From assembly GCA_964036195.1 (NCBI GenBank), contig OZ038459.1:23061206-23125205 (forward strand): a DNA stretch of 64,000 bases, read 5' to 3'. Made by a program: the position numbers and the translations under genes. Origin of the DNA: Sphaerolaimus hirsutus. Its lineage: Eukaryota > Nematoda > Chromadorea > Monhysterida > Sphaerolaimidae. The notes beneath the pieces are model-generated. The model saw nothing but the letters and a program-made list of their open reading frames with translations, was not told the origin of the DNA and searched no databases. Positions 721-62,400 of this stretch are shown piece by piece (the stretch's first letter is position 1; each line of letters opens with the position of its first letter).

Positions 721-1006
721 CTGGGAGGCACTCACAGACCCTGTAAAATGCCCTGCAAAATGGTAAATGTCAATTTGACATTTTCATTGACATTTTACAT
801 GAATTTTCAGACTTTTCATGACGTTTGACTTTTTTCAAAGCATTTTACATGACTTTTGACACTTTTCATGACATTTGACATTTTCCAGGGTATTTTACAT
901 GGCTTTTGACACTTTGCGCGACAGTTGACATTTTTCATGAATTTAACTCTTTACATAACATTTGACATTTTACAGGGCACTTTACAGGGTCTGGGAGTGT
1001 CACCTG
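721..1006. repeat. MITE of the CAGACCCTGTAAAATG family
   Basis: Inverted ends (cagaccctgtaaaatgcc near 735 and ttttacagggtctgggagtg near 985) enclose a body made of degenerate 'cattttacatgactttgac' units. The right terminus, read outward in reverse complement, is CAGGTGACACTCCCAGACC, nearly the same as the 5' boundary of intron 1 of the ADP-ribosylhydrolase gene. Confidence 0.75.
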
Positions 1007-1272: not shown

Positions 1273-1656
1273 TGCAGATGGCCCTGTGCCGGTACACATC
1301 GAAACCCATTTCATAGGTGGCGGATCTAGATGTGAAATGGGTTTAGATGTGTATTGATCCTCAGTCGTTGGATTCCTCATCGCAGCAAAAAATTTAGAAA
1401 TTTCAGTTGACAATTTAAACTATCTTAGGGCCGATAAATATATTAAAATTGGTAGATTTCACCACAAAGTACACAAAAACGCTAACCTATCCAAACAGGA
1501 TAGTTGCTGTAAATATTGGCTTTCTGCCAACGTGTCCATGCAGTAGAATAATTTCACACAGTTGCAAACTGGCAATGTGACGTTCGCTGCGGTCTGGGTG
1601 ATTTCGAAGGGTTTTGTTTTATTGGGCCCACACACTAGTTGACGTCGGGGGTGCAC

Positions 1657-4288: not shown

Positions 4289-4516
4289 CAGGGGCCAGTT
4301 CCGCAAGTGGAAAAGTTAAGAGTTAAAACTTTAGAGTTGAGTAAAATGAGAAATGACAACGTATGAGTAAATTTAAGAGTTATAAGTTGAGTAAAACGAC
4401 AAATGATTTTACTCAAGTCTTAACTTTTAACTTTACTCTTAACATTTAACTCTTATCATTTTACTCAACTCTTAAGTTTTAACTCTTAACTTTTCCACTT
4501 GCGGAACCGGCACCTG
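4289..4516. repeat. MITE with CAGGGGCCAGTTCCGCAAG ends, copy 2
   Basis: Left end caggggccagttccgcaagt; the right end is its inverted counterpart, ccacttgcggaaccggcacctg. The interior is degenerate 'aagttaagagt' repeats in both orientations. Confidence 0.82.
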
Positions 4517-9935: not shown

Positions 9936-10616
9936 AGAGCCAGTGAACCCGGGTGTCGGGGGGGGGGGGGGGCTGCCCCGCACCTTGTTTATTTCAAGGT
10001 AGTGTCATGTCAATTAAAATTAGAAAAGCTAATTTTATATTTACGAACTTTTGACATTTGACATCGCATTCGACAAACTTGTATGTCATTTGACAAATTT
10101 GTGACACTTACGCTTCACTTGACACTTTACAGGGTGCTAGTCTGGCACCTGAAGCAGTAAAAAATCGGCAAAAGACAACTTCCCAGGGGTGCGACAGTGG
10201 ATAGTTTTTGCCCCCCCCCCCCCTCTGGAGACCCCCAAATAACCCAACAAGAAAACAAACCACACTGCAATGTAGAAAAGTGACAACAATAACTGCCACA
10301 ATAGAGAACTCCATCATTAAAGTAGCTTTTATTCGATTTTTGTCGCTTTCAAAAACTCAATTGAACAATGAAATATATCCGCGCACACGCTTTTATATTG
10401 ACCATGGACATTGACCAAAAAACGACAAAACAATCATTTGTATAGAATTGATTCAGCCATGTAAGAAATGCTTGCTGACCGAGATTTTTGAATGAGTATA
10501 AATACTCGTGGCGTCAAAAAAAAACTAAATAATAAAATGCTCGAAAAATTGATGGAAAATGTGCCAATGACACGCCATGGGTATTTTGTGGAAACTTGTT
10601 GTAGCTTACCGTATAT

Positions 10617-22498: not shown

Positions 22499-22692
22499 TG
22501 ATCAGGTGGCAATCCCAAGCCCTGTAAAGTGTAAAGTAAAGTGTCAAATGTAAAGTCAAATGCAAAGTAAACTGTCAATTGTCATGCAAAGTTCAGTAAT
22601 AACATCTTTTCTTTTTTGTTTTAATTGTCACTTTACTTTGCGTTTGACTTTACATTTGACACTTTACTTTACACTTTACAGGGCTTGGGACT
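22499..22692. repeat. MITE of the CCCTGTAAA family
   Basis: Left aggtggcaatcccaagccct and right agggcttgggactgcccccag. The interior is repeated 'aaagtgtaaagt / actttacattt' units that pair end to end. Confidence 0.8.
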
Positions 22693-23130
22693 GCCCCCAG
22701 GGGGCAGTGCCGTGCCCGTAAAGTGTGCAGAAATGTGTCAAATGCCATGCAGTCTCAATTAAAATAAACAATTCATTGTAATTTTTTGACATTTTGCATG
22801 ACATTGGCAATGTGTGGCAGACTGAACACAAAATCAATACTAACCATAATACACATTCAATACTGACCAAACTGCACACTTTAGACGGAATGTTAACAAA
22901 ATTTGATGATTTAAGACATGCAAAGGTCCCCTGTTAAATTTTTCCTAAAAATTGCAGCTTATGTAATGTGAGAAAAAAGTTTAAATTGTGTTCACTTTTT
23001 CAGATTGAATGGTACCTTTCAGAGTAAAGTGTGCAGTCAGTAAACTATATCACATTTAACTATTGTAGTGCTTACTGTTTCACCCTATTCCCAAAGGCCA
23101 TAACAGTATCCCACTGGCTCATATCAAGTT

Positions 23131-26100
23131 CTATGCTGTATATTTGCAAGTGATTAGTTCCTCAACAAGTTGCTCAATATCCATGCATTGTGCCGCACGG
23201 AACTTCTCATTCCTTTCATTTGTAGCCTGTGATGAGAGGACAAATTGTTGAAAAAATGGTGCTTGAAAACAATGGATACTGCCACAATGCACAAGCCTAC
23301 CATTCTGACAGTGTCCTTCCATTCTTGCGGTATGTGGCTTGCACCAAATCTGGCACCAAGTGCCGCACCAGCAATGCACCCATTTGTATCGGTGTCCCCA
23401 CCTCTTTTGATGACATCTTGTAAACCACTGGCAAATGATGTGGCAAATTTCACAGCATGAATTGTGTTTTGCATGGCAACACCTGCTTTTTCATTTTTAT
23501 TAAAATTATAAATACAGCAACCTTCATTCAACTGGTGAAAAATTTTTTACCTACAAAGCCCTGAAATTCTCTGGAATCAGTCATCACTGCACCCTGATTT
23601 GGTATGTTTATGGGCTCAGGCTCCCCAGATAGTGCTGAAGAAATGCACTCATTCCACACACTATGCTCACTAATGTGCTGTGCTGCAGCTGTAGCTTTCT
23701 ATATGGGGAAATGAGCAAATATGTATTATAAAAGATTAAATGGCAGAAATTGTCAGCTGGAAACTACATACTAAACACCTTCCTGATCAAGTCGGGCCCC
23801 CTATTTTTATTTTCACTTCGCATGCCCTATTTATGGTTGTGTGAGGGGTGGAAAGCTAATACTTGTGGGTTATATAGGTGCAACCCCCACTACCCCTCAT
23901 GAATAAATGGGGCAGCGGTGACTCATTATAGAGGGGGTCGCTGTATATGTGAAAAAAAATTGCGGTGTTTTCACTGTCCCGCACAGGTCCGGCCCCCAGT
24001 TCATTTCTTACACTACGGCTTGTAAAAAGGGGCGTCAGACGCCAATAACACCACAGGAAAATGGTGCTAAGTGCTAATGACTTTCTCAAATGGCGCCAGT
24101 GCCATGGCGCCATTATATCACTAATCCCGATGCCTCGATATTTTTTCCCAATCCCAAACCTTAAATTTTAAAAGGCTTTTTTTGCTTTTTTTTGTGACAA
24201 ACTTGACCCGCTGGTTTAGGGTGTTTTATAGAGGAAGGTTTAAGGTTCCAAGTTGCGTAAAGAACTATACCCCAAAAATGCCTCCATAAAAAAATTTACT
24301 TGGGGTTAATTCAAATTAGAAAATTTTGACAATTTTTGTTCCTGTAATGGCGTAATTTTGACATCATAAAGTTCACCCCAAGTAAATTTTATAATTGAGG
24401 CATTTTAGAGGTAAAGTTTTTTACGCAGCTTGGAACCTTATACCTGACTCTTAAAAACATCCTAAACCAGCGTGTGAAGTGTGTAAAAAATAAAAGCAAA
24501 AAGTGAATTTTTAAATTTGCCAAGTTCTTTTTCTGGTCTGCTGCTTAGGGGGTGGGTGTTTGTGGAATGTTTGTGGCTTAGGGCCATGGCACTGGCGTCA
24601 TTTGAGGTAGCCACGTGGTGCCACGCAGGCTGTCTGCGAGATTACCACATTTTCTGTACCACACCACACCACGCAAATTCTGTTACACAAAAAAATGCAA
24701 TAACACATACCCCGTTTATATTCCTATGCAATGGGAGAGCATTATTCTCTCACACGTTGCCCTGTGTGTTAACAAAAAAATGCTCACACGCTACAGGAGG
24801 TCAACTTTTGGGTGACCTCTGTACACACCACGCAACAACACGTCTCAAAAGTTGTGCCCATTATACAGTGTGGGTTACAAATATTGTTTTGCAAAAAAAT
24901 ACTTTTTGATTTGCATATGCTGATACATTTTATTTGCAAGTTGAAATTTTGATTTGCATATGGAAATATACACTTTTGCAAATTAAAATTTTATTTTGAA
25001 TTTTTCAAATTTTGAAAAAATACATTCAATTTAAATTTTGATTAACAAATACTTGAATGTTTGTATAGGCAAATTGAAAAATGTAAGATACATCCTTTTC
25101 TTTATGTGCAAACATGTAAAAACATATATTATGCAAATAGAGATGTCATTTTGCATATCTTTTGTACTTTGAATTTTTAGATTTGTGGAAAAAAATAAAA
25201 TTTGTCAATTTTATGATGCAAAAATATGTATGTAAACATGCAAATTCTGTTTTAAGTTACATATATAAATAATTTTACTTTGCAATGAAAATTATATATG
25301 GGAAAAACTTAATTACAGTACAGTGTGGGACACCTGGCATTTGCCCTCTCACTATGCCAACGTGAGAACAGATGTGGCTATCACGTTGCATAGTGATGCA
25401 CCACTATTTTGTAGCACGCACAACACGCTGCACAGCTTTATAGTGTGTTGTGCAGTATTGAATACCACATAAAATTTTTGTGTCCGTGAGATGCACAAAT
25501 CGTTTACCCGCATTGCTTACCACGCTTGTATACCACAGGGTATACTTTCACAGACAGCCTGGTGCCATGCCATGGCACCTATTTCCTGTGGCGTTATTGG
25601 TGCGTGACACCCCTTTTTCAAGCCATAGCATGAGAAAAAAACTGGTGGCCGGACCTGTGCGGGACAGTGAAAACGCCGCAAAATTTTTTCACATATACGG
25701 CGACCCCCTCTATAGTTAGTCGCCGCTGCCCCATTTATTCATGAGGGGTAGTGGGGGGTTGCACCTATATACCCCACAAGTATTAGCTTTCCACCCTGCC
25801 CACAAACAGAGATAGGGTGTTCGTAGTGAAAATAAAAATAGGGAACCGGACTTGATCGGGAAGGTGTTTATAACTTACATCCACATCACCAGACAACATA
25901 AGTTCCTTGAGTAATGTTACATAAATTGCAACTGCATTTACTGCCAGTTTATTTGGATTGGTTATGACAGTGTCCTGAGCAGCCACTTCCACTAGTTGTT
26001 CACTGCTCCAATGCAAACCAGCTATGCTCAGGGGAGAAATGCGCATCATGCACCCATTTGATAAGCTGCTCTGAAAAAGGGGGCATAACACTTGCAGAAA

Positions 26101-27080
26101 ACTGGAATTACTCACTGGTGTTATGCACACTAGTTTACTGCTGGTTAACTGAGCTATGTATATATTGACATTGAAAACATTTTTGAAACATTTATATTTA
26201 ATTGGATTTATTTTTTCAGCCAAATGATGGAGACAAGAACCATGCATTAAAGTGACTAAAATGCACTTAAAACAGTTTTTTCAGTTGACCACCAGCTTCA
26301 GATGACCAGTATGAGTCTATAAGTGTGTATCAACATTATTGAAAACATTTACAAACACTACATCTCTGATATGACTGTTTAGTTATTTTTTCATAGACAT
26401 CTTCCTTTGATGACCATCTCCCCATGAGTGCCTTTACAGTGGTATTGCCAATATCTGGCGGGTCTGATCTGGATAAAATAGAATGATTTATCTTTGAAAG
26501 TTTGACATTTTCAATATTGAATAAATACAATTGTATTCAAGATGCATTCTTACCTGCACCATTGATGGTAAGAAAATGCAACATCATCCCTGTCATATGA
26601 GCCACATCTGACCAAACTTCTTGTAAGTGACATGGCTAACTCACTGTCATCAGTTACCTACATGACAACAATGTATGTAGAATTGGCTCATTGCCAAGAA
26701 AATAAAAAAGTAATTTTTATCTAACTTGTCCTGGTTTCACAGAGAATGGCCCTCCTCCCTTGATGGGAATTATGTCCAATTTTCCTTCAACAGAATCTCT
26801 CCACATGGCATTAGTGACATCACCAGAGGTGCCAAATTCATACCTGGGGCACTCCAAGAGCTGTAAAATACTCTTTACAATGTCAAATATCATTCAAAGT
26901 GGCAAACATCATGTAAAATGCCACCTCAGTTGCCATTTTACATAAGTTTTGACAGTTTGAATGACATTTTACACTTTACAGGACATTTTACATGGTCTGG
27001 GAATTACACCTGGCGCCAAAAGCATCACCAATAAGCTGCCCATACAAACATCCCAAAGCATGATCTTTGATTGCAGTCAT
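23131..27080 (-). CDS. ADP-ribosylhydrolase (ADP-ribosylglycohydrolase family), 8 exons, about 337 residues
   Basis: Exons, in transcription order: 27080-27010, 26843-26726, 26657-26554, 26468-about 26366, 26070-25879, 23698-23551, 23482-23301, 23226-23131 (stop TAG). Family hallmarks: ALGCLYGQLIGDAFGAR at the N terminus; VTDDSELAM with the metal-binding Asp pair near residues 66-67; DIGNTT; SNGCMMRISPL near 136-146; and the second metal site GGDTDTNGCIAGAALG near 273-288. These enzymes use two Mg ions to hydrolyse ADP-ribose from proteins or from ADP-ribose derivatives; the substrate cannot be read here. Total length is normal. The end of exon 4 is uncertain: the join after KQSYQ matches the family, but no clean GT lies there (nearest GT about 3 nt further on). 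Most introns are 68-85 nt. The two anomalous ones are intron 1, which coincides with a MITE, and the 2180-nt intron 5, which is filled by a foldback element. Predicted to be soluble, with no signal peptide. Confidence 0.9.
23774..25868. mobile_element. Foldback element with TIR AACACCTTCCYGATCAAGTC, 2.1 kb
   Basis: Terminal repeats of more than 30 bp at 23774 and 25868 (inverted), flanked by TA on both sides. Inside are a second symmetric pair, 'cctctatagtgagtcgccgctgcccc'-type blocks near 23900 and 25700, and an inner hairpin at 24195-24475 shared with the copy at 32369. It fills intron 5 of the ADP-ribosylhydrolase gene; without it, the intron would be about 83 nt. No transposase frame is seen. 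Confidence 0.85.
26844..27009 (-). repeat. MITE that coincides with intron 1 of the ADP-ribosylhydrolase gene
   Basis: On the minus strand the intron begins GTGTAATTCCCAGACCATGT and ends GGAGTGCCCCAG. The two ends are inverted (ccagaccatgtaaaatg with tattttacagctcttgg) and enclose degenerate 'cattttacatga' units, exactly the build of the MITEs at 721, 22499, 59058 and 60413. The element borders fall on the splice sites within a base or two. Confidence 0.8.
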
Positions 27081-27164: not shown

Positions 27165-27734
27165 GAGTTAATTAGTGGGGGGGAATATTTCAAGGGTTCA
27201 ATTTTGTTTGCTTATTCTTAGTGGGTTTATCTATGTACTATTGCCCGAGTATAGAATGTTTTTACAAAAAGCGATTGAATGTAATGCGATATCCTGATAA
27301 GAACATATACTCGGCAGACACGACACTCTACAAACAGATAGGAGTTATGTATTCAGTTGGCAGACAGCCAGCCGAGAACTTATGGAAGGATGATGACAAC
27401 GAAGTGATGACTTCATGAAGACGACATGATGGCGAGAGATGATGATGGCGATGAAAGTGATCATGTCATGATGGAGTGTTTCCTCCGGTAAAATGTATGG
27501 CGTAATGTCATCCGAGTATACTAGCTACATACGTATATATACATACTAGCTGTGATGCAAATTGACATCGATTAATACATCGGTTAATTACATATTTACA
27601 TGATGTATTTACCTACCTTATCCCAGACAGGGATATTTCGAGGGGGGTTTATTTTTTCCTCAGCTCGATAACACTTGGGGGTATTTCGAGAGGGGGGGAG
27701 CTTATTGAAGGGGGCATTTCGAGGAAATACGGTA
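27165..27734. repeat. TACCGTATT-family element with GAT microsatellite
   Basis: G tracts at 27176-27183 and 27630-27715 and right end cgaggaaatacggta. The middle (27240-27520) is the inverted counterpart of 200-450 and holds a GATGATGAC/GATGATGGC microsatellite. Confidence 0.75.
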
Positions 27735-28186
27735 CTTATACACATCAAGTTCCTTTATTTAGTATAGATTTCACTATTTTTAGGTGATAGTTATTCAAAG
27801 GTATTATAGGTGCTATTAAAGGGGGAATATGCAATCTGTAAATTCAGATTGTTTACAGAACAAAACTGTTTCACTTTCACCAAAATGAATAATATTTATA
27901 AACTCTATAAAATGACTGGTTCCAACTCTGTTAAATACAAAAGAATGCTTGCATCAAAAAATAATCTTGCACCACAGGATGATTCACGAATATAACACAC
28001 CAGTGATGGGAAACAAAAAATTTTAAGACATTTTTTTCGAGTTTTCAGGAAAATAATCACTGGAGGACAAGACTTGGATCAATTTTTGCCCAAAAAAATA
28101 ATTTAAAAATAAAATATAATTTTTCTGGGAAGTAAGATTGTAAATGAAATTCTCAAGACTCAATGAAAATACACAATTCCGCTTCA

Positions 28187-28817
28187 TATAGTCGGCGGAC
28201 AGCACACTACGTATGAAAACCTACCATAATTTAATGAATAAAACATTGTGATAAATTCCGTAATTAATTATTCTACAGTAAAAACGAAATACCGTATTAC
28301 CTCGAAATACCCCCATGGGGGTTTATTATTTCGCCAGCAAAATTTGAGGGGGGGTTAATTCGAGGGGGGGGTTTATTCGAGGGGGGGTTTTATTATTTCG
28401 TCAGAAATTTTCATAAAGGATCGTAGTAAAAAGTAGGCATTTGCATACCGAAAACAGGTAATAGATGTGTCCAAACAATATATATTTGGACATAAAAACG
28501 TAGATAGCTACACAAACTAGTCTATGTGTAGCTGCAATGCAAATACAGTAATATACATCATGTACATTGCATACATGACGTATTTATTATGTACATGACG
28601 TACATCATTCCGAAGGGGGGGGGGGTATTTCGAGGGGGGGGTTTATTATTTCCCCAGCCCATTTTGAGGGGGGGTTAATTCGAGGGGGGGTTAATTCAAG
28701 GGGGGGATAATTCGAGGTAATACGGTATTATGATTAAAAAAACTGTATAATTTTTGGTAAATAATTCAGATGGGTTATGGTAGGTTTTCATACTAAGTGT
28801 GACGTCTGCCGAGTATA
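28187..28817. repeat. TATACTCGGCGGACAGCACAC MITE with a nested TACCGTATT element
   Basis: Outer ends (tatagtcggcggacagcaca and its inverse ending gccgagtata) carry the shared 'gtatgaaaacctaccataattt' arms. A complete TACCGTATT-family element with four G tracts sits inside at 28290-28727, so it is the younger of the two. Confidence 0.82.
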
Positions 28818-31162: not shown

Positions 31163-31396
31163 TTATATCAGTCATTTGGCATGAAATTTTGCATGGCACA
31201 GGATTGGCCCCCGATGCAAACTCAAAATAATTATTATTTACCATTCTTTACTTGATGGATCATTTTTCAACTGTCATCATTTGCAAGTTCTTTCTTTGAT
31301 TGTGTAATGACTCAGACAAATATTTTACATCATATAAATATGATTAACCACACATTTTATCACCCAACTTTCAGACCTACGAATATCCATGACACC

Positions 31397-34300
31397 ATGC
31401 AGTCATTTTTTAAAAAAATCTCATTTTTACCATTTTTCACACTATTCACATTTACTGGAGCATCTGTGAGTGATGGTGATATAGCCAGATTTGTACAGAA
31501 ATTGTGGGATTCAGATGAAAATGGTGCCACCAAAAGTGAGGTCCTAATAAATACTCAGAATAAAGTCAGTTATTCACAGAATGCTGACACAGCCAATGGG
31601 AGGTTGGTTTAGCTGTTTTTTTGTCAAGTGTCATGTAGGGTTCAAACGGGATCCCGATCCCGGATCCCGTGAAATTCCGGGATTTAGCAGTCCCGATCCC
31701 GAAAATTTTCAAATCCCGATCCCGATGCTCAAAACTCAAAAGATGATGAAAACTTTGATCCCAGATGAAAAACTCAAAAGTCCGGGATCCCGATCCCGGA
31801 AAAATTAGTGGAAATTATCAGAAGTGAAAAAATGACGTTTTGCATGCAAAAATATGAACGCAAACCGCCAGCGTTCACTTTTCTGGCATCCAACAGTGTT
31901 TTGAGAGCTTTATGAACAACTGTGAATGCCAGAACATTGGCCAAAATCTCTATCCCAATACCCCAATCCCGATCCCGATCCCGTGACCCCAATCCCGGCC
32001 AATCCCGAAATCTCAAAAAACCAATCCCGATCCCGAAAAGTCAATCCCGTTTGAACCCTAGTGTCATGTCAATTGTCAAGTGGTCAATTTCAATCGACCT
32101 GGTAAGTGGAAAGTGAAGTTTCAGATGTCCCTCACAAACATATCACCAGGGACCAGTCCGACAGTCTGTAAAATGTCAAAAAAATCTTACAAGTGTCCTG
32201 TAAAGTGTAAAATGCAAGTATTTTTTTTGCTGTGTAGCATTATTTTTCATTTTGCAAGACACATTACAATTTTGTATGACTGCAAATGCGGGGTGCTCAG
32301 GTGTTCAAGTATCTTAGGTAATCATATAGATAACGTATGTTAGTTGTACGCGGCGGACATCACACATAAACACCTTCCCGATCAAGTCCGGCCCCCCATT
32401 TTTTATTTTACTTCTGACGTCCTATCTCCTGTTCTAGGAAGCGCCAGAAGCTGAAACTTGGGGTAGATATTGGCGCAACCCCCCTCTACTTCGCATGAAT
32501 TGAAGGGGTCGCGGCGACCCCCTACAGGGTGGGTCGCCGAGTGCAAAAAAAATTTGCAGCTTTTTTAGTGTCCCACACAGGTCCGGCCCCCACTGATTTC
32601 TTCCACTGCGGGTGCCGTACCTCCACATGTGGGAGGGGTATGAATCTAAAATTTTGGGTATGTGTCGCCAACACCCCTCCCCTACTATACACTGGCCAGG
32701 CGGTCTTTGGCAACTCACCACAATGTGGGGTGCAAAGTTTAAAATTTATTAAAATGTTACTGTCCCACACAAGTACAGCATCCAATTGAATTTCAAAAAA
32801 TGGACACTTTTGTGTTGTTTTAACACTAATGTGGTTGACAATGTGAAATAAGCATGAAATATCCTCTAAAAATTATCTTATCCGACCTAAAACTGCCCAC
32901 CACATGAACCCCTCCCCCAAGTGGGTGACAAAAAATCACTTTTTACAACTTTTTCATCAGACACTTGAACTGCTGGTTTACTATGATTTATAGAGGAGGG
33001 TTAAATGTTTCAAATTGTGTAAAAAACCTTACCTCAAAAATGCCTTCATTAGAAAATTTGCTGGGGGTAAATTTAAAATTGTGAATTTTGCCTATTTTTG
33101 TTCCTGCAATGATGTCATTTTTACAATTTGAAATTCACCCCCAGCAAATTTTCTTATGAAGGCATTTTTGAGGTATGATGTTTTACACAACTTGAGACCT
33201 TTAACCCTCCCCTATAAATTATTGTAAACCAGCCGTTCAAGTGTCTAATAAAAAAGTTGTAAAAAGTGATTTTTTGTCACCCACTTGAGGGAAGGGGTTC
33301 ATGTGGTGGCCAGTTTTAGGTCAGATAAGATATTTTTTAGAGGATATTTCATGCTTATTTCACATTGTCAACCACATTAGTGTTAAAACAACACAAAAGT
33401 GTCCATTTTTCGAAATTCAATTGGATGCTGGACTTGTGTGGCACAGTAACATTTTAATAAGTTTTAAACTTTGCACCCCACACTGTGGTGAGTTGCCAAA
33501 AACCGCCTGGCCAGTGTATAGTAGGGGAGGGGTGTTGGCGACACATCCCCAAAAATTTTAGATCTATACCCCTCCCACAGCTGGAGATACGGGACCCGCA
33601 GTGTAAGAAATCAACCGGGGGCCGGACCTGTGCGGGACAGTGAAAACGCTGCAAATTTTTTTCACGTATATGGAGACCCCCTCTATAGTGAGTCGCCGCT
33701 GCCCCATTTATTCATGCGGGGTAGTGGGGGGTTGCGCCTATATACCACCCAAGTTTTAGTTTTCCACCCCTCCCGCAACCGGAGATATGGCCTGCGAAGT
33801 GAAAAAAAAAATAGGCGGCCGGACTTGATCGGGAAGGTGTTTAGTATGAAAAACTACCATAACTCATCTGAATAATGGACCAAAATTTTTACAGTTCTTT
33901 CATCATATTATTTGGTTTTTACTATGGAATAATAAATTACGAAATTTTTCAGAAGATTTTATTCATTAAATTATGGTAGGTTTTCATACTAGGTGTGCTG
34001 TCCGCCGAGTATACTCAATAATGACAAATGGCATTTGGCACATTTTCTTTTCAAATAAATAAATTTATTAAATTCTCGTTTTAAAATACTTTTTCTTAGA
34101 ATTCCTTTATTATACCTACACAGGGCCGTATCCAGGGGGGGCGTGGGGGCTGCAGCCCCCCCCCCTCCCGGGGCGAGACCAGAAAGTGACCAGAAAATGC
34201 GACTTTTTCAACGTCAACGTAAAAAATTTTGCGCGCAAGCGCGCATTCTTCACCAGATATAAGGTATTATCATCAGATTTGCTCCATGTGGCCGCAAATC

Positions 34301-37300
34301 ATTAAAAATGTTGTGCTTTTTGCTGTTTTGTATGTATATTTACATACATATACAGCGTTCCGTGGCGCCATTCCGCCACTATGTAGCTAAAATTTTAGGG
34401 GGGGGCTGAGCCCCCCCCCCCCCTCGCCGGGCTCCGTAAAGAAGCAGCCCCCCCCGCTCAAAAATCCTGGATACGTCCCTGTACCTACAACTTCCAAATA
34501 CTTTCAAAAAACACTTCTAACTTTTTTCCACAGACTATTTGTGCGTGTCGACGACTCATTACTTCAGAGACCCACCTATAAAACAATGATCGATTTGTTC
34601 AAGGAATATAAGGAAAATACTGATGTAAATGACCAGTCGCCGCAATTGCAAACGAAAATTGATGCATTTCTTGATGCTGTTTTGGATACAAAAGTCATGA
34701 AAATTCTGAGGGATTTTCTTAAAAAGCAGGGTGTGTTGTGATTTACCGGGGTGATTTTTAAACGGGAAATGTTTTTCGAAATGTGTTTATACACACTAGT
34801 TTTGAAAAACCTGTTTCAATGCTTGTTTAAAAAAATTCGTTTAAAAAACCCTGTCCATCCATAAATAGTAAAAAACTGTTGAGAATTTGAGATTTCGTTT
34901 TTTTCAAAATGTTCAGAACAGTTTTCAAAATTTCTGCTGTAAACTAGTGGTCCAGTAGTTTTTACAAACATTTATAGTTCGCAATTCAGTAACTCCACAG
35001 AAGTCTTATTATGATATTGAATCTGAACAAAAAATAAAAATCGGCACGTAATTTTCCGTATTTTAAGTTTAAGCCCAAAAATAATCTTGGGAGATATTGG
35101 AAGTGGGAGATCCCAAAGTCAACCACAAAAAGCTTCTATTAAAAATTTGACCCATAACATAAATCTTAACACCCCATCATTACTTAAAATCTGAAATATA
35201 TACCGCGGGCACTACACTTTTTCAGATTACAGTTTTGCATCCACAGAGAAAGCATTTCGCAGTCACCTGAAATCTTTGTGGTTTGCACCATATTCAAGAT
35301 CAAAGGGCGTTCCCGGGACATCTGGATTTGAACACACATTTGTTGGTACGTTTTTTCGATGAAAAATGCGTGAATTGTATACTGGATGCCGCACCGCACA
35401 CTGAAATTTTGCGTTCAGCGTTCGAACGTTTTCGCACGCTGAACTACAAACGCTGAAATCAAAATCTAACGAACACAGCGTTTTTAAAGCGTAAAAGTTC
35501 GGAATTTGCAGTATTTCGCGTAATTTGCATGCGAGCTGCGTTTTTTGCGCATTAAAAACGTTCTGTTCTTTAGATTTTGATTTCAGCGTTTGTAGTTCAG
35601 CGTGCAAAAACGTTCGAACGCTGAACGCAAAATTTCAGTGTGCGGTGCGCCAATGACGGCTCAAAAATATATCTACAATATCCCGTCTGAATGAAAATTT
35701 GGGGAAAAGTTTTAAACCCCCAACAGTTTCGGTTTCTCATGACAAATTGCTTACTCTATGGTTGAATTTGCTACACATTGTTCACACAACACAAAACGTG
35801 TTTTTGTATTTAGGGTTCAAACGGGATCCCGATCCCGATCCCGGATCCCGTGAAATTCCGGGATTTAGCAGTCCCGATCCCGATCCCGATCCCGAAACAC
35901 CAATCCCGATCCCGATCCCGAAATCCAAAAATACCAATCCCGATCCCGATCCCGAAAACTTTCAAATTCCGATCCCGATCCCGAGAATCTCCCAAGTCCG
36001 GGATCCCGATCCCGGAAAAAATAGTGGAAATTATAAAAAGTGAAAAAATGACATTTTTGCGTGCAAAAATGTAATTGCAAACCCCCAGCGTCCATTTTAC
36101 ATCACTTTTCTGGCATCCAACAGTGTTTTGACACCTTTATGAACAACTGTGAATGCCAAAACAGTGACGAAAATCTCTATCCCTAGACCCCAATCCCGAT
36201 CCCGAAAAAATGCCAATCCCGATCCCGATCCCGTGACCCCAATCCCGGCCAATCCCGATCCCGATCCCGAAATCTCAAAATACCAATCCCGATCCCGATC
36301 CCGATCCCGGAACCCCAATCCCGATCCCGATCCCGAAATCTCAAAAAGTGAATCCCGATCCCGATCCCGAAAAGTCAATCCCGTTTGAACCCTATTTGTA
36401 TTGCGTTCAGCCCACTCAGCAGGGGTTTTGTAGATTTGGACCCCCGCGGGATAGATAGCTGAAAAAAAATTTTGGGGAGGGGGTTTAATATATAGGCTTT
36501 TCCGAGGTATAGAAGGAAGAAAAAGGGGAAAAATCGCTAAAAGTAGGAGAAAAACAGCTAAAAATAGATATATAAGTACATATAGTACAAAAAATAGCCG
36601 GAAATAGGCAATACGGAACATGAATTAGAATTTTGAAGGTAAAAAAAACTATAAAAAGGTATGAAAATTTGCGATTTTGAGCGAAAATTTGGGCAAAATT
36701 TCTTTAAAATCGCCGCAGATAGATAGATAGCTGGCCGATTGGGGGGGGGGGGGTTTAGGGGCTAGTAGCCCAAAATTTTGCCTCCGGGATAGATAGATAG
36801 CTGGCGGATTTGGGGGGTTGGGGGTAACCCCCCCCCCTACTTAACCCCTGCCACTCAGTATAAACTCAAATGATTCATTGTTACACGATTTGAGAGCAGT
36901 TAGATAAAAATAGTTATGTCTAGGGTGTCAAAAAAGAATTTTTTACGGAAAACGGAAATGGAAAAAAAATTTCAGCGGCCGGAAAACGGAACAGAAAACG
37001 GAAAAAAATTTGCACTAGGCGGAAAACGGAAACGGAAAAAAAATTTCAGTGGCCGGAAAACGGAAAAATGGGCCGGAAAAACGGAAACGGAAAAATGAAA
37101 TTTGCATGGAAATGGCAAAATTTGCTGAAATTTTGCCAGAAAACAGATAAAATTTGCTGGAATTTTGCTGGAAGTGAAAATTTTTTGCTGGGAACAGTAA
37201 AAAATTACGTAATTGACAATCTGCATGAATTTTTTCCCAGTTTGGCTGGAACAGAAAACAGAAAGTTGAGCCAAAAAAGGTAAAATGAGGCGGAAAAACA

Positions 37301-40288
37301 GAAAATTGAGGCAGAAAACGGAAAAAAGGCAGAAAAACTGGAAATTGAGCCAGAAAACGGAAAAAGGCGGAAAAACTGAAAATTTAGCTGGAAAACGGAA
37401 AATGAACCGGAAAAACGGAAATGGAAAAAAGTGGCCGGAAAACGGAAGGGAAAACGGAAAAAAAGATTCAGCAGCCGGAAAACGGAACGGAAACAGAAAA
37501 AATTTGCCTGCAGAAAACAGAAATGGAAAACAGAAATTTGACATTCTAGTTATGTCTACTATTTATTTTAATTTCATTGACAAGTTTCCATTCGTTACAT
37601 ATTTAGTCAATATTTTCATTCTGATACTTTGGTGCACCGCACACTCAAAATTTTCAAGGGCGGTTCGAACGTTTTTGAGTTCCGCCAAGGCAGAACTCCA
37701 AGGGTGGTTCGAACATTTTTATTTAGGAAAAATGTGTCATTTTTAGGACATTCGGATGAAATTCACATGAATCCTGATGAATTCACACAGTTTTTGTCCA
37801 TTTGCATATCATAACAAAACGTTTCAAAAACATTGGGACACTTTCAATTCCACCCTTGACTTAAGAGATACGCCCTTTAGAGAAGGTTGTTATGAGAAGC
37901 ACATCTTATTTATCTTACCAAATATATTTGTGAAAAAAATTTTATAGGTAGATGTAGGCTTTGTCTTCAAAAATGAATAGAGAAATTTTTTAATAATACC
38001 CACTTGTTTAAAAGATATTGAAGTTCACCGTGTGGCATATTTGTGTAAACCGAAACTGAATTCCACCCTCTAGAAAGTGTCCCAATGTTTTCTTGCCTAG
38101 ATGGCGCACTGCACACTCAAAATTGTCAAGGGCGGTTCGGACGTTTTTGAGTTCCACCAAGGCAGAATTCCAAGGGCGGTTCAGACATTTTGCACTTTCC
38201 TACCTGTCTGAAAAAGTTCCACCCATGCACAATCCGGGGCAATTCCGCCATCGTGCAAAGTGTTCGAACGTTTCATGTGCGGAATTGAAATTGGGGGCAC
38301 TTTGAACGTTTTTGGATTCCGCCCCCATTTTTAATTCCGCCCTTTTGAATTCCACCCTTGAAAAAGTGTTCGAACTGCAACTGAAAATTTGAGTGTGCCG
38401 TGCAACATTCGCTTGGATCAGTGCCAAATTTTTGTTATGCACAAATTTCATTATGTGCATTTAGGATCACTAGCAAGCTTTATTGAACTGTTTCATCCCG
38501 GAGAATTGCATAAAAACACTTTTCCACATTAATTTTGTTCCATGCATTACAATAATTCAAAATTAATCTAAAAATTATACCCATTTTTCAGGTGAAAACG
38601 ATGATGGCAAACTGAAAGGCATGCATAATTGGGTGAGGTTTTACCTGCTTGAGAAGGACCAGGGGGCAGATTATGCTGGATACACCAAAGAGAGAGATGT
38701 GAGTGTGTGAGGAACTTTTTTATCATTTTTTATTGAGGTATGAGTTGTGAAAATCGTGGTCAAGGACGTATCCAGGGGGGGGGGCGGGGGGGGCTGCAGC
38801 TCCCCCCCCCCCGTTCCCAGGGTGAGACCCGAAAAGTTCAGCAAAATGCCACTTTCACTAGAAATTTTAGAACACAAGAACATATTTGTAAAAATTTTGC
38901 GCGCAAGCGCGCAATTTTCCTCCACACAGAAGGTATGTTCTGCAGAGCGTTCCCTATATAGGCAAATCCGTCACAATTCCCTAATTTTCTGCCCGTCGCT
39001 GTGTAATTTATACATATTTACCTACTACAGCACGGCACTTTTTGGCGCTAGCGCCAACGCCAATGGAGCCATGGCGCGGCGTCTACGAATGGCGCCAGCA
39101 CCATTGCGCCATCCGATCACTCCGTAGGGGAAATTTTAGGGGGGGGGGGGTTGAGCCCCCCCGTTCGCGAGGCTCCGTAAACAAACAGCCCCCCCCCCGT
39201 TCAAAAATCCTGGATACGTCCCTGATCGTGTTGTATTTGTTTCGGATTGGATTTTAGTATAGTTTTACGCCAGTATCACATGAATTGGCTTTCAGAGATA
39301 TTCTAGATCAGTGGAGAAACTACTTCAAAATGTGACAATATTCAAAGAAACTCTCCGGAACACAGGGGTATCTTGAATTTTGACCCTCCGAGTGGTTGGA
39401 TAGATAGCTGTGCGACTTTCGAGATAGATAGAAAGCTGGAAAAAATTTGGGGGGGGGGGGTTGTGGTGGTTCGATATATAGGCTATTTCAGGGTGTAGAA
39501 GGAAGAAAATGGGTAAAAGGGAAAAATCGCTAAAAGTAGGTGTAAAACAGCCCAAAATTGGTATACAAGAGCATATAGTACTAAAAATAGCTGAAAATAG
39601 GTAAATAGGAACAACAACTAGTATTTTGGAGGTGAAAATCTATAAAAAGGTATGAAAAATAGCGATTTTGAGTGAATATTGGGGTATAGTTTCTCAAAAA
39701 TCGCTCCAGATAGGTAGATAGCTGAGCGATTTGGGGGGGGGGGGGTTAGGCAGTAGTAGCCCGGGATAGATAGATAGCTGAGCAGCCTCCAGGATAGATA
39801 GATAGCTGGGCGGTTTGGGGGGACCCCCCCCCCCCAATCCCCCATTCGATAGCCCTACCTGAACAACTTTTTAATCATTCAAATATTTATGCTCATATTT
39901 ATTTCCCCACCACCACAAATCACTACCAATTTTACAGCACATACTATCCATCAAATATCGACACCACTCACAATGGAAATCTTCCAGTATGTTCATCAGA
40001 ACCAGTCCAGAACTGGAAATGGCAATATACACACTTTGCTTCACATTGAGAGAGGGCAAAAATCAGTGTCATTTTGAGTTGCCAGACTGCACTCAAGTGC
40101 ACACCACAACTTATGAGCAAAAGTATAAACAACAAACTATGATTGGCACGGCTTACCCTGATTCTAAAGGCTCAAAACAATGTCTTTTGTACAGTAATAA
40201 TAGAATGGGTGATACTGATGGTGCTGTTACCGTCGGTGTTCCTGTTATTTTTGCATTCTTTTTGGCAATATTTGCATTGATGTTTTAA
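31397..40288 (+). CDS. EndoU-type poly(U)-specific endoribonuclease, secreted or membrane-anchored, 5 exons, 326 residues
   Basis: Exons: 31397-31602, 34534-34730, 35226-35345, 38592-38698, 39938-40288. They sum to 981 nt with all phases matching. The start ATG opens a hydrophobic signal peptide (residues 1 to about 23, MQSFFKKISFLPFF...). The XendoU domain follows: LFVRVDDSLLQRPTY (about 70-84), a helix with VMKILRDFLKKQG, the first catalytic His in SGFEHTFVG (His171), the second in GMHNWVRFYL (His186), and the conserved Lys before SSMFIRTSPELE (about 224) with LYTLCF-like IYTLCF. EndoU enzymes cleave single-stranded RNA at uridylates, usually Mn-dependent, leaving 2',3'-cyclic phosphates. 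The last 20 residues (VTVGVPVIFAFFLAIFALMF) are strongly hydrophobic and end the protein, suggesting a GPI-anchor signal or tail anchor. Introns 1, 3 and 4 are 1.2-3.3 kb and repeat-filled. Confidence 0.92.
31636..32060. repeat. CGGGAT-array hAT-like element, copy 2, EndoU intron 1
   Basis: 8-bp target duplication gtgtcatg at 31628-31635 and 32061-32068, perfect. Same termini and centre as copy 1, in inverted orientation, with shorter hexamer arrays. Confidence 0.95.
32345..34017. repeat. TATACTCGGCGGACAGCACAC MITE, split by a foldback element
   Basis: The left part (tgtacgcggcggacatcacaca) ends at 32366 and the right part resumes at 33844 (gtatgaaaaactaccataac), ending ctgtccgccgagtata. The two parts join to the same sequence as the intact copy at 44811. 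Confidence 0.82.
32369..33841. mobile_element. Foldback element with TIR AACACCTTCCCGATCAAGTC, 1.47 kb
   Basis: Terminal repeats at 32369 and 33841, TA on both sides. Nested symmetric blocks follow: 'ccaccacatg / catgtggtgg', an almost perfect inner hairpin at 32935-33300, and 'cctctatagtgagtcgccg'. Related to 23774-25868 and 41929-42217. Confidence 0.85.
34121..34481. repeat. hAT-like element CAGGGACGTATCCAGG, copy 2, EndoU intron 1
   Basis: Perfect 8-bp target duplication tacctaca (34113-34120 and 34482-34489). Inverted G/C tracts and a 'gcgcgcaagcgcgc' motif typical of the family. Confidence 0.93.
35389..35651. repeat. Near-perfect 263-bp palindrome, EndoU intron 3
   Basis: Arms start gccgcaccgcacactgaaat and its complement. 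Each arm contains gcgttcagcgttcgaacg and 'tcagcgtttgtagttcagcg', around a short centre near 35510-35530. A longer relative with GGCGGTTCGAACGTTTTTGAG units is at 37631-38404. Confidence 0.85.
35811..36394. repeat. CGGGAT-array hAT-like element, copy 3, EndoU intron 3
   Basis: 8-bp target duplication tttgtatt at 35803-35810 and 36395-36402. It has the longest arrays in the window (up to four uninterrupted CGATCC hexamers per block, many blocks on each arm). Confidence 0.95.
36410..36850. repeat. GATAGATAGCTG element fragment
   Basis: Contains ccgcgggatagatagctgaa, G tracts, 'tagaaggaagaaaa' and 'gggggtaaccccc'. A relative of the complete copy at 61661-62183. Confidence 0.6.
36921..37548. repeat. 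AAACGG-array hAT-like element, copy 1, EndoU intron 3
   Basis: Ends tagggtgtcaaaaaa and atttgacattcta, with target duplication gttatgtc (36913-36920 and 37549-37556). The arms are arrays of CGGAAAA and AAACGGAA. Confidence 0.93.
37631..38404. repeat. GCACCGCACACT element with GGCGGTTCGAACGTTTT units
   Basis: Left tgcaccgcacactcaaaatt and right ttgagtgtgccgtgca. Units of 'aagggcggttcgaacgtttttgagttccgcc' occur at both ends, with a second left-type end at 38102. A relative of the palindrome at 35389. Confidence 0.7.
38761..39224. repeat. hAT-like element CAAGGACGTATCCAGG, copy 3, EndoU intron 4
   Basis: Flanks atcgtggt and atcgtgtt differ at one base. G10/C10-type inverted tracts and a central GGCGCTAGCGCC array. 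Confidence 0.9.
39363..39862. repeat. CAGGGGTATCTTGAATTTTG element, EndoU intron 4
   Basis: Same left end and internal order (gatagatagctg, G tract, 'tagaaggaagaaaa', a second G tract, C tract) as 61661-62183. The right end is less well kept and no duplication is evident. Confidence 0.75.
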
Positions 40289-45884: not shown

Positions 45885-48800
45885 ATGTTATCGAAAGCGG
45901 CGCTTCGCTTGGGCGTGGCCAGCCGGCTGGCGCCAAAGGTTTGCGCCATTTTTTGGCGCTGGCGCCATTTTTTATCTGTCATTTTTCCTCACAACGATAA
46001 ATATTAGTGACTTTTTCAGGCGTCCACAAGTAGGGGATATACTACGGCGACTTACGGGGGAGATTATCAGGTTATAGATCACGCTTTCGATGCTGTTGTC
46101 GTGGGCGCTGGTTAGTTTTTTATTGGTTTGAGTTGAGGGCAGGGGTCTCCGGGATTTTCACTAGGGTTCAAACGGGACCACTTTTTCGGACCGGAACCCT
46201 GACCGGGACCAAAAATTTTCTTATGTCGGGACCGGGACTGGGGAGTCGGGACCGGGACCGCCCCAGTCCCGACTTTTTGCCGAACCATGTACCGGGACCG
46301 CGGTCCCGTTTGAACCCTAATTTTCACCCCAGGGGGTTGGAAAGACAGATAAAATTTTTTGAGGTGGAGTTAGGTATTTTCCAAGGTATTTCTGGCAGTA
46401 AGGGGGTAAAATCGTTAAAAATTAGAATACAAACACAAGCTAGTAGTTTTGAAGGTGAAAATTGGGAAAAAGTCACCAAAATCGCCCAGGTTGAGCAAAA
46501 ATTCTCAATATCTCTCCTGATAACTAGATACCTGGTCGATTTGGGGAAGTTTACCCCACACCCCCATTGAAGATCCGTGATATCAAAGCGTTAATTTTTC
46601 AATATTTTTAAAATCTCCATTTTTCTCTCCAGGTGGAGCGGGTCTCCGCGCAGCTATGGGTCTCGTTGAAAAGGGTTTCAACACTGCCGTAATTTCAAAG
46701 TTGTTTCCCACAAGATCGCACACTGTCGCTGCCCAGGGGGGCGTTAATGCGGCATTGGGAAATATGGAACCTGATGATTGGAAGTGGCACTTTTATGATA
46801 CTGTCAAGGGTGGGTATTTTTTTTTTTTGGGGGGGGGGTTGGTTTGCCAAGTGATCGGAAAACTGATATGTGACAAGTAAATTTGTTGCGGAAAATAATT
46901 GCTACTTACCTAGGTGTACTTGTTACTTTGCGTACTATTTTCTTAACTGACTTTACTTAACACTTTTTCTGTCACTTGTCCACTGATGGAATTTACACTT
47001 TGAGTTTATTTTTCGCAGTCGCTTTCATTTAAGCGCTTTATCCTTGAAGCAAAATCCGTCGAATATTGTCGAATATTTATTTAGTAAAGTCTCGAAAAGT
47101 CGAAAAGATCAGAACCGACAATTCTCACCACTTTAATAACGTAATCTTCCATCAATATTCACACTTTATCCACTCACAAACCACATATTTACGTTTCATC
47201 GAAAATCTATCCCAGGTTCCGATTGGCTGGGTGACCAAAATGCCATTCAATACATGACGCGCGAGGCGCCCAGGGCCATCATCGAGCTGGAGAACTACGG
47301 CATGCCCTTCAGGTCGGCTTGCATGTGCCATGTTTCAATTCATCGGCATTCTTTTTGCGATCTTTTTTGATAATGTGCCAAAAATTCGATTGGGATTATT
47401 GATTTGGATACGGTTTGTACTTTGCATTACATACAAATTTGTAATATTTTCACAATATTTTAGGCTCTGCTTAGGCTTAGGTCTGAGTGTTTTGGTGACG
47501 CGCTCATTCTCTGGAAGGAGGTACAAGTAGGGTTGGCCGATGTTTTTTTTAAACGTTTTTTTAAAAAAACAACGTTTTTTTTTATTTAAAAAAACATGAC
47601 GTCCGAAATGTTTAAAAAAAACAAACATCGGCCGAAACTTTTAGTACTAAGCACTAGGTATTTTGCAAAATTTTTGCGCGCAAGCGCGCAATGTCACACA
47701 CAAATTGACATTGGTGGTTGTTTTCATTGGTTTTGTGGCATTTTTAGTATCAAAATATCCATTTCTATGTGCTACCATGGGTTAATAAGCCGTCATATGT
47801 TGCTGTAGTATATAATATTGAGGTAATGTGCTTCCATGTACCTCCACAGTGTGTAACTTCACTCCCAAAGTAACAACCTCCTTTTATAACCTTGTTTGAT
47901 CACTATTCCGTGCCAAACTTTACCTGAAGTCACGAACATTCGACATAAAGGCGATATACAAACGATATGTCGACGAAAAATGGATATTTTTGACACAAAT
48001 CACCACTTATAATGCTATCCCATGGCTCCACAGACATTATATGGTCATATATAACATCACAGAGTATTGCCACTGTCTGATATACCTATATATGTTGACA
48101 CAAGGTCATATCTGGGAGCTTTAAAAAAAACGTTTTTTAAAAAAAACATCGAGTTAAAAAAAACGTTTTTTTTTCCAACCCTAGGTACAAGTGTAACTTG
48201 GACCTAAGCCAACTAGTAAACGAACACTGACGAATCGTTTGCCGCATGTGGCCGTTGGGAAGGCACCAGACTTGAAATTGAAAGGGGCAAGGGCGTACGC
48301 AGGGGGGGGGGCGGGGGGGCGGCCGCCCCCCCCCGTTCCCAGGTCGGACAGAAAAATTCGCCAGAAATGGCACTTTTCTGAGGCGAACTGGTAGGCACTT
48401 TAAAAATTTTTTGCGCGCAAGCGCGCAAATCTCCACCCCATTCTTTAATATGTCTTTTCAAGCGTCAAATTGCACTAGAAAAGTGTCCAACAGTGCCAAA
48501 AGCGGACCTAGTACCATATATAGGTATAAATAGATACCTATATGGTAGACGTTGGCGCCAACGCCAACGCCAATACTGCCATGGCGCTGGGGCCTACAAA
48601 TGGCGCCAGCGCCATGGCTCTATTCCTTTACTATAGGACAAAATTTTAGGGGGGGGGCGCCGCCCCCCCCGTTCGCCGGGCTCCGTATACAATCCGCCCC
48701 CCCCGCTCAAAAATCCTGCGTACGTCCCTGGAAAGGGGTGTTGGGGGAACCAGCGGGGGTCTAGTAGGGGCCCCCAAACGCTCCAGATATTTATATTGAA

Positions 48801-58865: not shown

Positions 58866-59057
58866 ATGTGACCACATTCTGAAGTGTAATCAATGCAGAA
58901 AAGTTGCATTTTATCTTATTCAACTGTTTCGATTTATTTGGTATTTAAAACGCACGTGACCGCATTCATTTGCATGTGTAAAACGGAATTGCAAAATCAT
59001 AACTGCTTTTGAAGAATTTTCGACATGAGTTGTGTACCCGGTCATGCTTGTGCCCCT

Positions 59058-59222
59058 CACAGACCCTCTAAAATGCCCTGTAAAATGTAAAATGTTCTGA
59101 AAAATACCGAAAGTCGTGGAAAATGCCGTGCAAAATTCAAGTTTTTCAACGGTCGTTTGTCATTTTACAAGGGAATTTTACATGACTTTTGACACTGCAT
59201 CACATTTTACAGCGTCTGTGAG
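59058..59222. repeat. MITE of the CAGACCCTCTAAAATG family
   Basis: Ends ctcacagaccctctaaaatg and cattttacagcgtctgtgag, with 'ccctgtaaaatg' units inside. It lies just upstream of the carbonic anhydrase start. Confidence 0.78.
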
Positions 59223-59414
59223 TGGCCCCTGGATTATCTGAAACGGAAAACCTTTTTGCACAGTTGTGATTTTGCAAGTCTGCTCTTAGGTATGCAAATG
59301 AAAATGCTATCTAAGCCATTACGTCTAACCCAATACCACCATACTTGCAGCTAAATTCACTGTTTACACTATAATATCAATTGTCACAAATCCAAAAAGT
59401 TTAAAATTCCAAAA

Positions 59415-62400
59415 ATGCCTGTCGGCTTCGAACGGCTAATAAGGGGTGTTTTAAAGTACGAAAAAACGCTGAAATCAACTTTAGTGAAACAATTCAAAGA
59501 AATCCGCGACAACCCCCAGCCAAAAGCTGTAATGTTCACTTGCATGGACAGTCGCTTGTTGCCCACTAGATTTACGCAGGTCAGTTTTTTGTGTATTTTT
59601 TATGGAATGTAAGTTTTGTGAAGTGGGCCCCCAAGGCTAGTTGACATCGACATCAAATGTGAGCTGGTTCCGTTCCCAGTCCAAAGCTCTCGTTTGAACG
59701 CCATTCATAGGCTCATCAGCAAGCTTTGAATCGGGACCGGCACCAGTTGACATTTGGTGTCGATGTCAACTAGCGTGTGTGGGCCCAATGGGGTTAGAAT
59801 TTTGTTCTACGGTGTCAACTGTTCCCGGTCCCAATTCGAAGCTCGCGCTGACTAGTAAAAACCCGCAATGGCGCTCCACAACGATTTTTAAAAATAAGAT
59901 TGAACGTTTTTTGGCAAAGTGTGAATAGTGTATTTCTTCTAATAGAAGAGCGTCATTCAATTTTTTTCCTGTCAACTTGTTTACCTGCCGTTCTATTGGT
60001 GGTTGACGAAAAAAATAGAACGGTGCTTTTCTATTAGAAGATATACGGTATTCATGCTTTGCCAAAAAATGTTCGAACTTATTTTAAAAATCGCTGTGTG
60101 GAGCGGCATTATTGTGTATACCCTCGGCTGACACATTTCACAACAGCAATATTTTTTTCAACAATAAATACAGGTTCATTTGCAACATGATTCAACACTT
60201 TTGCGTTTGAAATTCGTTCGCCAGCTCGTGAGCAAGCTTTGAATTGGGACGGGAACCAGTTGACATTTGGTGTCCTTGTCAACTAGTTTGTTCAGGGCTT
60301 ATCTAGCAAGCGTTCTAAATATTTACGCTCATGCAGGCACAAGTGGGCGACATGTTCATCGTGCGAAATGCAGGCAATACCATCCCTCCTGCCAGCACTT
60401 TCGGTAATTTACCCAGGGGCAGTCCCAGACCCTGTAAAATATCAAATGACATGCAAAGTGTCAAAAGTCATGGAAAATGCTCTGCGAAATGGCAACTCGC
60501 TTGACATTTGACATTTTACAGGGCATTCATTTTACAGGGTCTGGAACTGGCACCAGGGGTCTTGGTTTTTGAAAAAGAGGTCTTTTTGAACAACGTTTTT
60601 AAAAACCGCACTACACAGCACACTTATTTACCCCCCCCCCCCAGGTCACTACACAGCCAATCGTTTCGACTCTGAAGTGTCAATTACAACGGAACCTGCC
60701 GCCTTGGAATTAGCCTGCGCCAGGTGCCACATTCAATTAGGGCGTAAGGCGCCAGAGACGCATCACGTGCATAGGGTTCCAAAAAGTGGTGATTTTCGGT
60801 GATGGGTAATTTTGTATTTTTAATCACAGTTTGCATTCAATTTTTTTACCTCAAAAATCACACTTTTAGATCCAAAACGTGGTGTTTTTCAGAAAACATA
60901 AGTAAATATTATCTCAGAAAATCTCACAAAGGTAAATATGTCAAACTAAATCTCCCTGAAAAAGCGCAGAGAAAATGAGATAAAATAAAAGATTAGATTT
61001 GAAAATATATTCAAAAATTTAAAAAATATAAATCTCCCGACATTTTGGGGCTTTTTACACGCGTTAACTCTAGTCTAGGACGCCCTACCTTCAAATTGGA
61101 TCTGGCCCCAGGGGTGGCATACAGCACGTGGTTGTCCTGGGGCACAGCGATTGCAAAGCTATGAATACTTTGTACGGACTGGCGAAAAATCCAGACACTT
61201 TTGAGCCTAGTAGCAGCATCGATTGCTGGTTGAGAAGGTGCGCTGTTTTTTCTTTTTTCTTTTTTTGAAGGATGTGTAAACTCGAGTGACGTATTTCTAT
61301 AAATGTGTCTGCAATGGCCCTACACACTAAATAGTTGATATTGGCGTCACACACGCTGAATGTCAACTGACCTCGTGTCAACTAAATTTTTGTGAATTAT
61401 GTGATTTCAACTTTTCTATCTGATAGAGTATAGTTAATTTTACAAAATGGCACTTAATTTTCATTGATTCTGTTAAGTGTGCTGCTTTTAAAATTCTTTT
61501 TGTGTTATTTAGTTGACATTGAGTTGACAGAAATTTGCGATGTCAACTAGCGTGTGTGGACCCAATGACATCGGATGTCAACTGGGTTGACTGGTCCCCA
61601 CTTTCCATCCACATTTTAGTTGACGGGTCGCGGAACCATGTTTAAATGCACATAAAATACCAGGGGTATCTTGAATTTTGACCCTCCGAGTGGTTGGATA
61701 GATAGCAAATCGCTCCTCCGGAGGGATAGATAGCTGAAAAATTTTCTGGGGGGGGTTGGGGGGGGGGGGTTGTGGTGGTTCGATATATAGGCTTTTTCAG
61801 GGCATAGAAGGAAGAAAAGGGAGAAAAATCGCTAAAAGTAGGTGTAAAATAGCTCAAAATGGGTATACAAGAGCATATAGTACTTAAAATAGCTGAAAAT
61901 AGGCAGTTAGACGCATGAACCAGTGATTTTGGAGGTGAAAATCTATATATAGGTATGAAAAATAGCGATTTTGAGCGAAAATTGGGGTATAGTTTCTGAA
62001 AAATCGCTCCAGATAGGTAGATAGCTGGGCGATTTGGGGGGGGGGTTTAGGGGGTAGTAGCCCAAAATTTTGCCTCCGGGATAGATAGATAGCTGAGCGG
62101 CCTCCGGGATAGATAGATAGCTGGGCGGTTTGGGGGGGGGGGTAACCCCCCCCCCCCCAACCCCCCCCCCATTCGAGACCCCTGTAAAATACCAATATTA
62201 ATTCCTACTCGACAATGTCGCGTGTAGGGTTCAAACGGGATATCGATCCCGATCCCGGATCCCGTGAAATTCCGGGATTTAGCAGTCCCGATCCCGATCC
62301 CAAAACTTTTCAAATCCCGATCCCGATCCCGAGAAACTCCAAAGTCCGGGATCCCGATCCCGGAAAAATTAGTGGAAATTATCAAAAGTGAAAAAACAAC

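Follow-up and report, generated by a model that had tools for sequence, protein, structure and literature searches.

We find that intron 1 of an ADP-ribosylhydrolase (ADPRH) gene of the nematode Sphaerolaimus hirsutus is in all likelihood an introner, with a probability that we put at about 0.88: judged from its sequence, it would be a near-palindromic, non-autonomous DNA transposon that a NuwaI-type transposase most likely moved, and in which the duplicated CAG of the insertion site serves as the acceptor. The window, i.e. the whole stretch of DNA that we analysed, comprises 64,000 nucleotides (positions 23,061,206 to 23,125,205 of contig OZ038459.1, assembly GCA_964036195.1).

The ADPRH gene lies on the minus strand, and its model consists of 8 exons and 340 codons free of stops. 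Exon 1 (27010..27080) and exon 2 (26726..26843) of this PF03747-type gene are placed by the model and by alignment to homologues, while the gene model places exons 3-8 and introns 2-7 within 23131..26657 (exons 3-5 at 26657-26554, 26468-26357 and 26070-25879; exons 6-8 at 23698-23551, 23482-23301 and 23226-23131, the last including the stop codon, which was read from the sequence). Compared with PF03747 proteins, the predicted protein yields 574 matches at E <= 0.001, with a top identity of 44% among the best 120 of the 574, and solved ADP-ribosylhydrolases also match it. The seven introns measure, in order, 166, 68, 85, 286, 2180, 68 and 74 nt; the sequence-only reading had described most introns of the gene as 68-85 nt long, which fits four of the seven and leaves those of 166, 286 and 2180 nt outside. 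Intron 5 (25878-23699) holds a different inverted-repeat element, with the ends AAACACCTTCC(C/T)GATCAAG, and a similar end is seen near 32371.

Intron 1 runs on the minus strand from 27009 down to 26844 (166 nt) and its boundaries, read directly, are GGCGCCAG/GTGTAATTCCCAGACC...GGAGTGCCCCAG/GTATG (slashes mark splice boundaries), which confirms the length and the position, 26844..27009, that had been proposed for it. The same boundaries, taken together with the other copies of the family, bear out the proposal that the intron is end to end a member of a MITE family. The MITE itself is 163 nt long (26847..27009, minus strand; 5' end GTGTAATTCCCAGACC, 3' end GGAGTGCCC) and is followed by the downstream CAG of a target-site duplication (26844..26846), which ends the intron and gives the AG of the 3' splice site; the upstream CAG (27010..27012) forms the final three bases of exon 1. 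We read the flanking triplet as a target duplication because a further copy in the window, at 60417-60553, carries CTG at both ends; this rules out the flanking CAG as a part of the terminal repeat, against which it also counts that dropping one CAG loses a conserved Arg codon. The sequence-only reading had placed a donor, CAG/GTGA, inside the terminal repeat and had derived the acceptor from an element terminus, GCCCCAG: the GTG end is indeed element and the acceptor boundary does coincide, whereas the CAG in both cases is target duplication and not element.

Removal of the element together with one CAG gives GGCGCCAGGTATGAATTTGG, which encodes GARYEFG within GDAFGARYEFG, so that the insertion lies in an exon and its removal restores the frame. 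In a stretch of 21 residues around the junction arginine, 116 of 120 homologues (the best 120 of the 574 matches) align to the query without gaps. When the joins between exon 1 and exon 2 were enumerated (GT or GC donors by AG acceptors, 24 by 12), 39 stayed open, and among these the join 27009/26844 scores highest, with 158.7 bits on a profile built from these 120 homologues; the second-best open join, at 152.1 bits, uses a GC donor. The empty site thus restores a conserved, ungapped protein, which supports the earlier suggestion that insertion of such a MITE into an exon could create a removable intron at once.

We scored splice sites with small matrices based on 16 of the window's other introns (leave-one-out). 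The donor of intron 1, at 4.6 bits, exceeds 4 of the 16 window donors and is equalled or surpassed by 10% of the GTs of the window, a moderate score that does not sustain its description as a "strong" donor. The acceptor, likewise moderate at 3.0 bits, exceeds 3 of the 16 window acceptors, with 13% of window AGs scoring as high; of the 6 candidate acceptors that the interval lists, it ranks first. Stronger donor-like sites lie within the element at 26907 (GAT/GTTTGC, 6.2 bits) and at the opening of exon 2 at 26843 (CAG/GTATGA, 8.1 bits), and the internal TTTTACAG (26861) could be a decoy, the use of which would shift the frame. Folded as RNA, the element forms a single hairpin that joins its ends (-61.8 kcal/mol, z -6.45, 0/200 shuffles). 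Rfam gave no match in the window at the gathering threshold.

We counted 13 occurrences of the motif CAGACCCTGTAAAATG (<=3 mismatches) in the window, where 0.71 would be expected; 100 shuffles reach at most 3. Family copies lie at 724..1003 (minus strand, away from any gene seen, CAG on both flanks, GTG end at 1003), at 22506..22697 (plus strand, downstream of the ADPRH gene, CAG on both flanks, GTG and GGG ends), at 59050..59228 (plus strand, flanked by CTT and CTG, GTG and GGG ends) and at 60417..60553 (minus strand, CTG on both flanks), with degenerate copies near 4504-4696, 9968-10155 and 32146.

The window also contains a gene for the succinate dehydrogenase flavoprotein, SDHA (46062-56868, plus strand), whose protein has a top match of 69% identity; among the best 120 matches listed, the named ones are animals, nearly all at 65-69%. 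We did not find in the window a conserved SDHA piece of about 45 residues round MVWNTDLVETLELQN, although exons before 52792 and after 56300 are present, and near 52226 a run of G carries a frame shift of one; the missing piece and the frame shift reflect either an assembly error or a damaged copy. The SDHA introns were considered as further introners and set aside, none being an end-to-end element by eye (the two longest were checked at their ends only). One of them, 52306-52640 (plus strand), holds an inverted repeat round TTGACATCAACACCAAATGTCAACTGG and its complement that stops short of the splice sites. Recurring repeats round TACCGTATTACCTCGAAATACCCCC with tandem CGAATTAACCCCC units, at 27640-28730 and 63216-63780, resemble another short inverted-repeat family, and open frames at about 31256-40285 (plus strand) may be exons of an EndoU-type endoribonuclease, which they resemble by eye.

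When the assembly that contains the window (348.5 Mb, 762 contigs) was searched at the DNA level, 2472 candidates emerged at first look; 40 places among them received scores, and all 40 were retrieved. This sample is biased, its ranking being likeness to an intron copy. End-to-end pairing succeeded for 37 of the 39 non-self copies (L027 and L030 could not be paired). In 21 of these 37 the two flanking triplets agree (CAG in 15, CTG in 6), and in 16 they do not; L033 and L034, both among the 15 CAG copies, share their flanks and are probably one duplicated insertion. That every identical triplet is CAG or CTG lends further support to the creation of an intron by insertion. One end reads GTG in 35/37 and the opposite end GGG in 29/37, and the consensus of 38 copies is a 177-bp palindrome with arms of ~83 nt, broken only by three bases at the centre and by the unlike tips, GTGC and GGGG. 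In a profile scan of 20 stretches of 10 kb across contigs (200 kb), 29 places were found at E < 1e-5, many of them partial. Exact family-end patterns had no match in viral_contigs (2 patterns) or genome_contigs (1 pattern), collections from which this and near genomes may be absent.

We then consider the copies that lie inside other genes. Flanks were joined minus the element and one duplication for 44 paired copies, namely the first 37 and seven later ones (L061-L067, the first seven pairs with CAG on both sides on contig C1 by coordinate). Pfam was consulted for 36 of the 44, with junction-spanning frames picked by eye, mostly one frame each (L013, L014, L020, L028, L034, L035, L038 and L064 were left out), and with a counting line set after the results were seen. 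A Pfam match crosses the junction in 7/36 copies, an uncontrolled raw count. Above the Pfam cut-off are Pkinase at L003 (2.9e-32), HSP70 at L004 (2.5e-27), DNA_pol_B_thumb at L015 (1.5e-21) and Oscp1 at L063 (3.4e-19); below it are Zip at L024 (6.4e-8, 32.6 of 35.1 bits), Cpn60_TCP1 at L026 (1.7e-4, with support from the PIKfyve chain), and Sugar_tr (1.1e-3) with MFS_1 (3.5e-4) at L008, which has no other backing. Three further matches were not counted as spanning: MFS_1 at L029 (1.2e-3), which extends only about two residues past the junction, MdcG_N at L019 (0.008), and LRR at L062, which does not cross the junction. By flanking triplets, the spanning matches fall on 4/20 copies with CAG on both sides, 2/3 with CTG then CAG, 1/5 with CTG on both sides and 0/8 of the rest; within the L061-L067 subset, 1 of 6 tested copies (L063) has a spanning domain.

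The chains of solved DNA polymerase beta (L015), PIKfyve (L026) and MAP3K2 (L003) show no gap at the junction, the structure alignments of L026 and L003 being gapped elsewhere. A PDB search with L011 and L036 gave no match at E 0.1. Likeness to the family thus extends as far as both intron boundaries in several genes, with the boundaries inferred from protein continuity. An AG stands at the 3' boundary in six of the seven spanning copies, three of the six being below the Pfam cut-off, and these six copies within Pfam matches add to the support for intron creation by insertion.

The exception is L004, a copy of 265 nt (about 1386-1650, minus strand; contig C2 near 2868320) that is flanked by CTG on either side, has no AG at the boundary and splits the coding sequence of an Hsp70. 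By its sequence this is an exonic insertion that would be unspliceable at the element ends; it favours insertion into exons and speaks against the view that all exonic copies are introns. At L015 and L026 the exon retains CTG and the intron ends in CAG, the leucine of the exonic CTG corresponding to isoleucine in DNA polymerase beta (L015) and to leucine in PIKfyve (L026). The simplest reading of both would be an insertion at CTG, the downstream copy of which later mutated to CAG and so made an acceptor.

Exact ends were also counted over the whole genome. On the donor side, CAG followed by GTGCCANTCCCAGACC occurs 2183 times and CTG followed by GTGCCANTCCCAGACC 1900 times; on the acceptor side, GGTCTGGGANTGCCCC is followed by CAG 1760 times and by CTG 1185 times, and the backward controls of all four patterns gave 0. 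The genome search that had been proposed for this MITE family thus returned thousands of exact ends, with gene boundaries judged from protein continuity. CAG exceeds CTG on either side (donor p 1e-5, acceptor p 3e-26), and the acceptor excess is above that of the donor (odds ratio 1.29, p 2e-7). Random orientation predicts equal CAG and CTG, and a target bias should affect both sides alike; a surplus of CAG on the acceptor side is the prediction of selection for AG, i.e. for splicing. The excess is thus suggestive of selection on splicing, and it may also stem from a mutational bias acting on acceptor ends. If the donor ratio is treated as the bias, the surplus would amount to ~400 exact-ended copies. 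Within the first 11.82 Mb of contig C1, the places listed comprise 100 CAG and 86 CTG donors and 64 CAG and 39 CTG acceptors; ends less than 215 bp apart pair as CAG with CAG in 21 cases, CTG with CTG in 16, CTG with CAG in 4 and CAG with CTG in 1, which supports true target duplications.

These counts bear on two other explanations. If the family were an ordinary MITE unrelated to splicing, its coincidence with intron 1 would be a single chance event, as the 29/36 copies without a spanning Pfam match and the nearly equal donor-side counts of CAG and CTG might suggest; we regard this as extremely improbable, given that other copies with a 3' AG sit exactly between the coding halves of conserved genes and that CAG is in excess at the acceptor. 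Reverse splicing has been proposed for fungal introner-like elements, and an RNA-based introner, the spliced copies of which reverse-spliced into new sites, would likewise place copies at coding junctions with exact ends in the thousands. The terminal inverted repeats, the CWG duplications and the many CTG-flanked ends without AG (1900 on the donor side, 1185 on the acceptor side) point instead to DNA transposition, and leave the RNA route hardly credible for this family.

The age of the insertion was assessed from the copy itself and from paralogues. At 77.9% identity to the consensus, the ADPRH copy has diverged further than any other of the 38 aligned copies; the remaining 37 are at 84-95%, and the insertion therefore looks old. 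A protein search of the genome identified ADPRH paralogues at C15:17967175-17968784 (54-84% identical) and C14:23378342-23388370 (53-79%). In the C14 paralogue, residues 1-32 and residues 23-65 are matched separately, with 114 bases in between. The window gene is split in the same way, and the paralogue probably has an intron of roughly 140 nt at the same place, as estimated from coordinates. In the C15 paralogue no contiguous match to exons 1-2 is seen, and several of the matched stretches contain stops, as do some of those of the window gene itself. Because the C14 paralogue is split at the same residue, intron 1 appears to be a gain and yet not a recent one, probably predating the duplications of the ADPRH paralogues.

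The shared split, and the divergence of the ADPRH copy, would also suit an ancestral intron into which a MITE landed, the old intron sequence then being lost and the element left as the whole intron. This course of events would require that both remnants were lost with single-base precision and that exactly one CAG duplication, which restores a conserved codon, stayed behind, and the same exact fit is seen again in unrelated genes; we consider it quite improbable. The preferred reading, insertion of the transposon into an exon, would proceed as follows. The element, the probable mover of which is a NuwaI-type transposase, would insert at CWG triplets and duplicate them; the PHIS superfamily, in which NuwaI is placed, comprises relatives of PIF/Harbinger. 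Its tips are unlike, GTGCCA at one end and GGGGCA at the other, and insertion into a CAG target with the GTG end first would give exon-CAG/GTG...CCCC-CAG/exon. The donor would then come from the element and the acceptor from the duplicated CAG, and splicing at the element ends would give back the original frame exactly, possibly helped by the long RNA hairpin, which would draw the ends together.

A wider reading, which we put forward tentatively and at somewhat less than even odds, is that a CWG-targeting transposon was pre-adapted to make introns. CCAGGT is a classic proto-splice site; a transposon with CCAGGT as its target would leave CAG at both exon edges, and a change of the tip from GGG to GTG would have supplied the donor. 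Following insertion at CTG, the downstream copy would be turned into CAG by selection, so that "wrong" insertions too could become introns, and the imbalance of CAG between acceptor and donor would mirror hundreds of introns of introner origin within a single animal genome.

How new introns arise, and why they prefer CAG/G sites, has long been asked. Among animals introners are rare, and here one genome holds thousands of copies with measurable divergence, with the same element in spliceable (CAG) and unspliceable (CTG) insertions and with a mover for which a named candidate exists. One could measure directly the selection that acts on new introns, the creation of acceptors through point mutations and what unspliceable insertions cost. 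Among the literature matches listed (titles and abstract openings), which are not proof of absence, there was neither a NuwaI or Harbinger introner nor this family.

Introners are transposon families whose ends lie at splice sites (Gozashti et al. 2022, PMC9860276), and the class with an element-borne donor and a co-opted acceptor is already known from that survey, which reports introners in just two animal groups; neither "Harbinger" nor "superfamily" appears in its main text. Chrysochromulina introners carry a 5' splice site, co-opt a 3' site and have 4-bp target-site duplications (PMC9860276, Fig. 2C legend). The family described here resembles them in its element-borne donor and co-opted acceptor and differs in being a near-perfect palindrome with a 3-bp CWG duplication; the Chrysochromulina elements display no terminal inverted repeats. 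NuwaI, of the PHIS superfamily, has the target-site duplication 5'-CWG-3', terminal inverted repeats of 12-61 bp usually beginning with GGG, and a distribution in animals only; the passages considered from this source (PMC4482050) do not mention introns made by NuwaI. The CWG duplication is found here as well (21/37 identical triplets, all CAG or CTG, with 16/37 unmatched), and the GGG tip is present at one end (29/37), the other end being GTG (35/37). Unlike those of NuwaI, the inverted repeats are ~83 nt long, and because such arms exceed the 12-61 range we do not file the family as a NuwaI member. The target of zebrafish Harbinger3_DR is AAACACCWGGTCTTT, with insertion centred on CCWGG (PMC3016246), and the ADPRH site GCGCCAGGTATG fits CCWGG, a likeness by target site only. 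On these comparisons, the sequences point to an animal introner family, with NuwaI as its probable origin.
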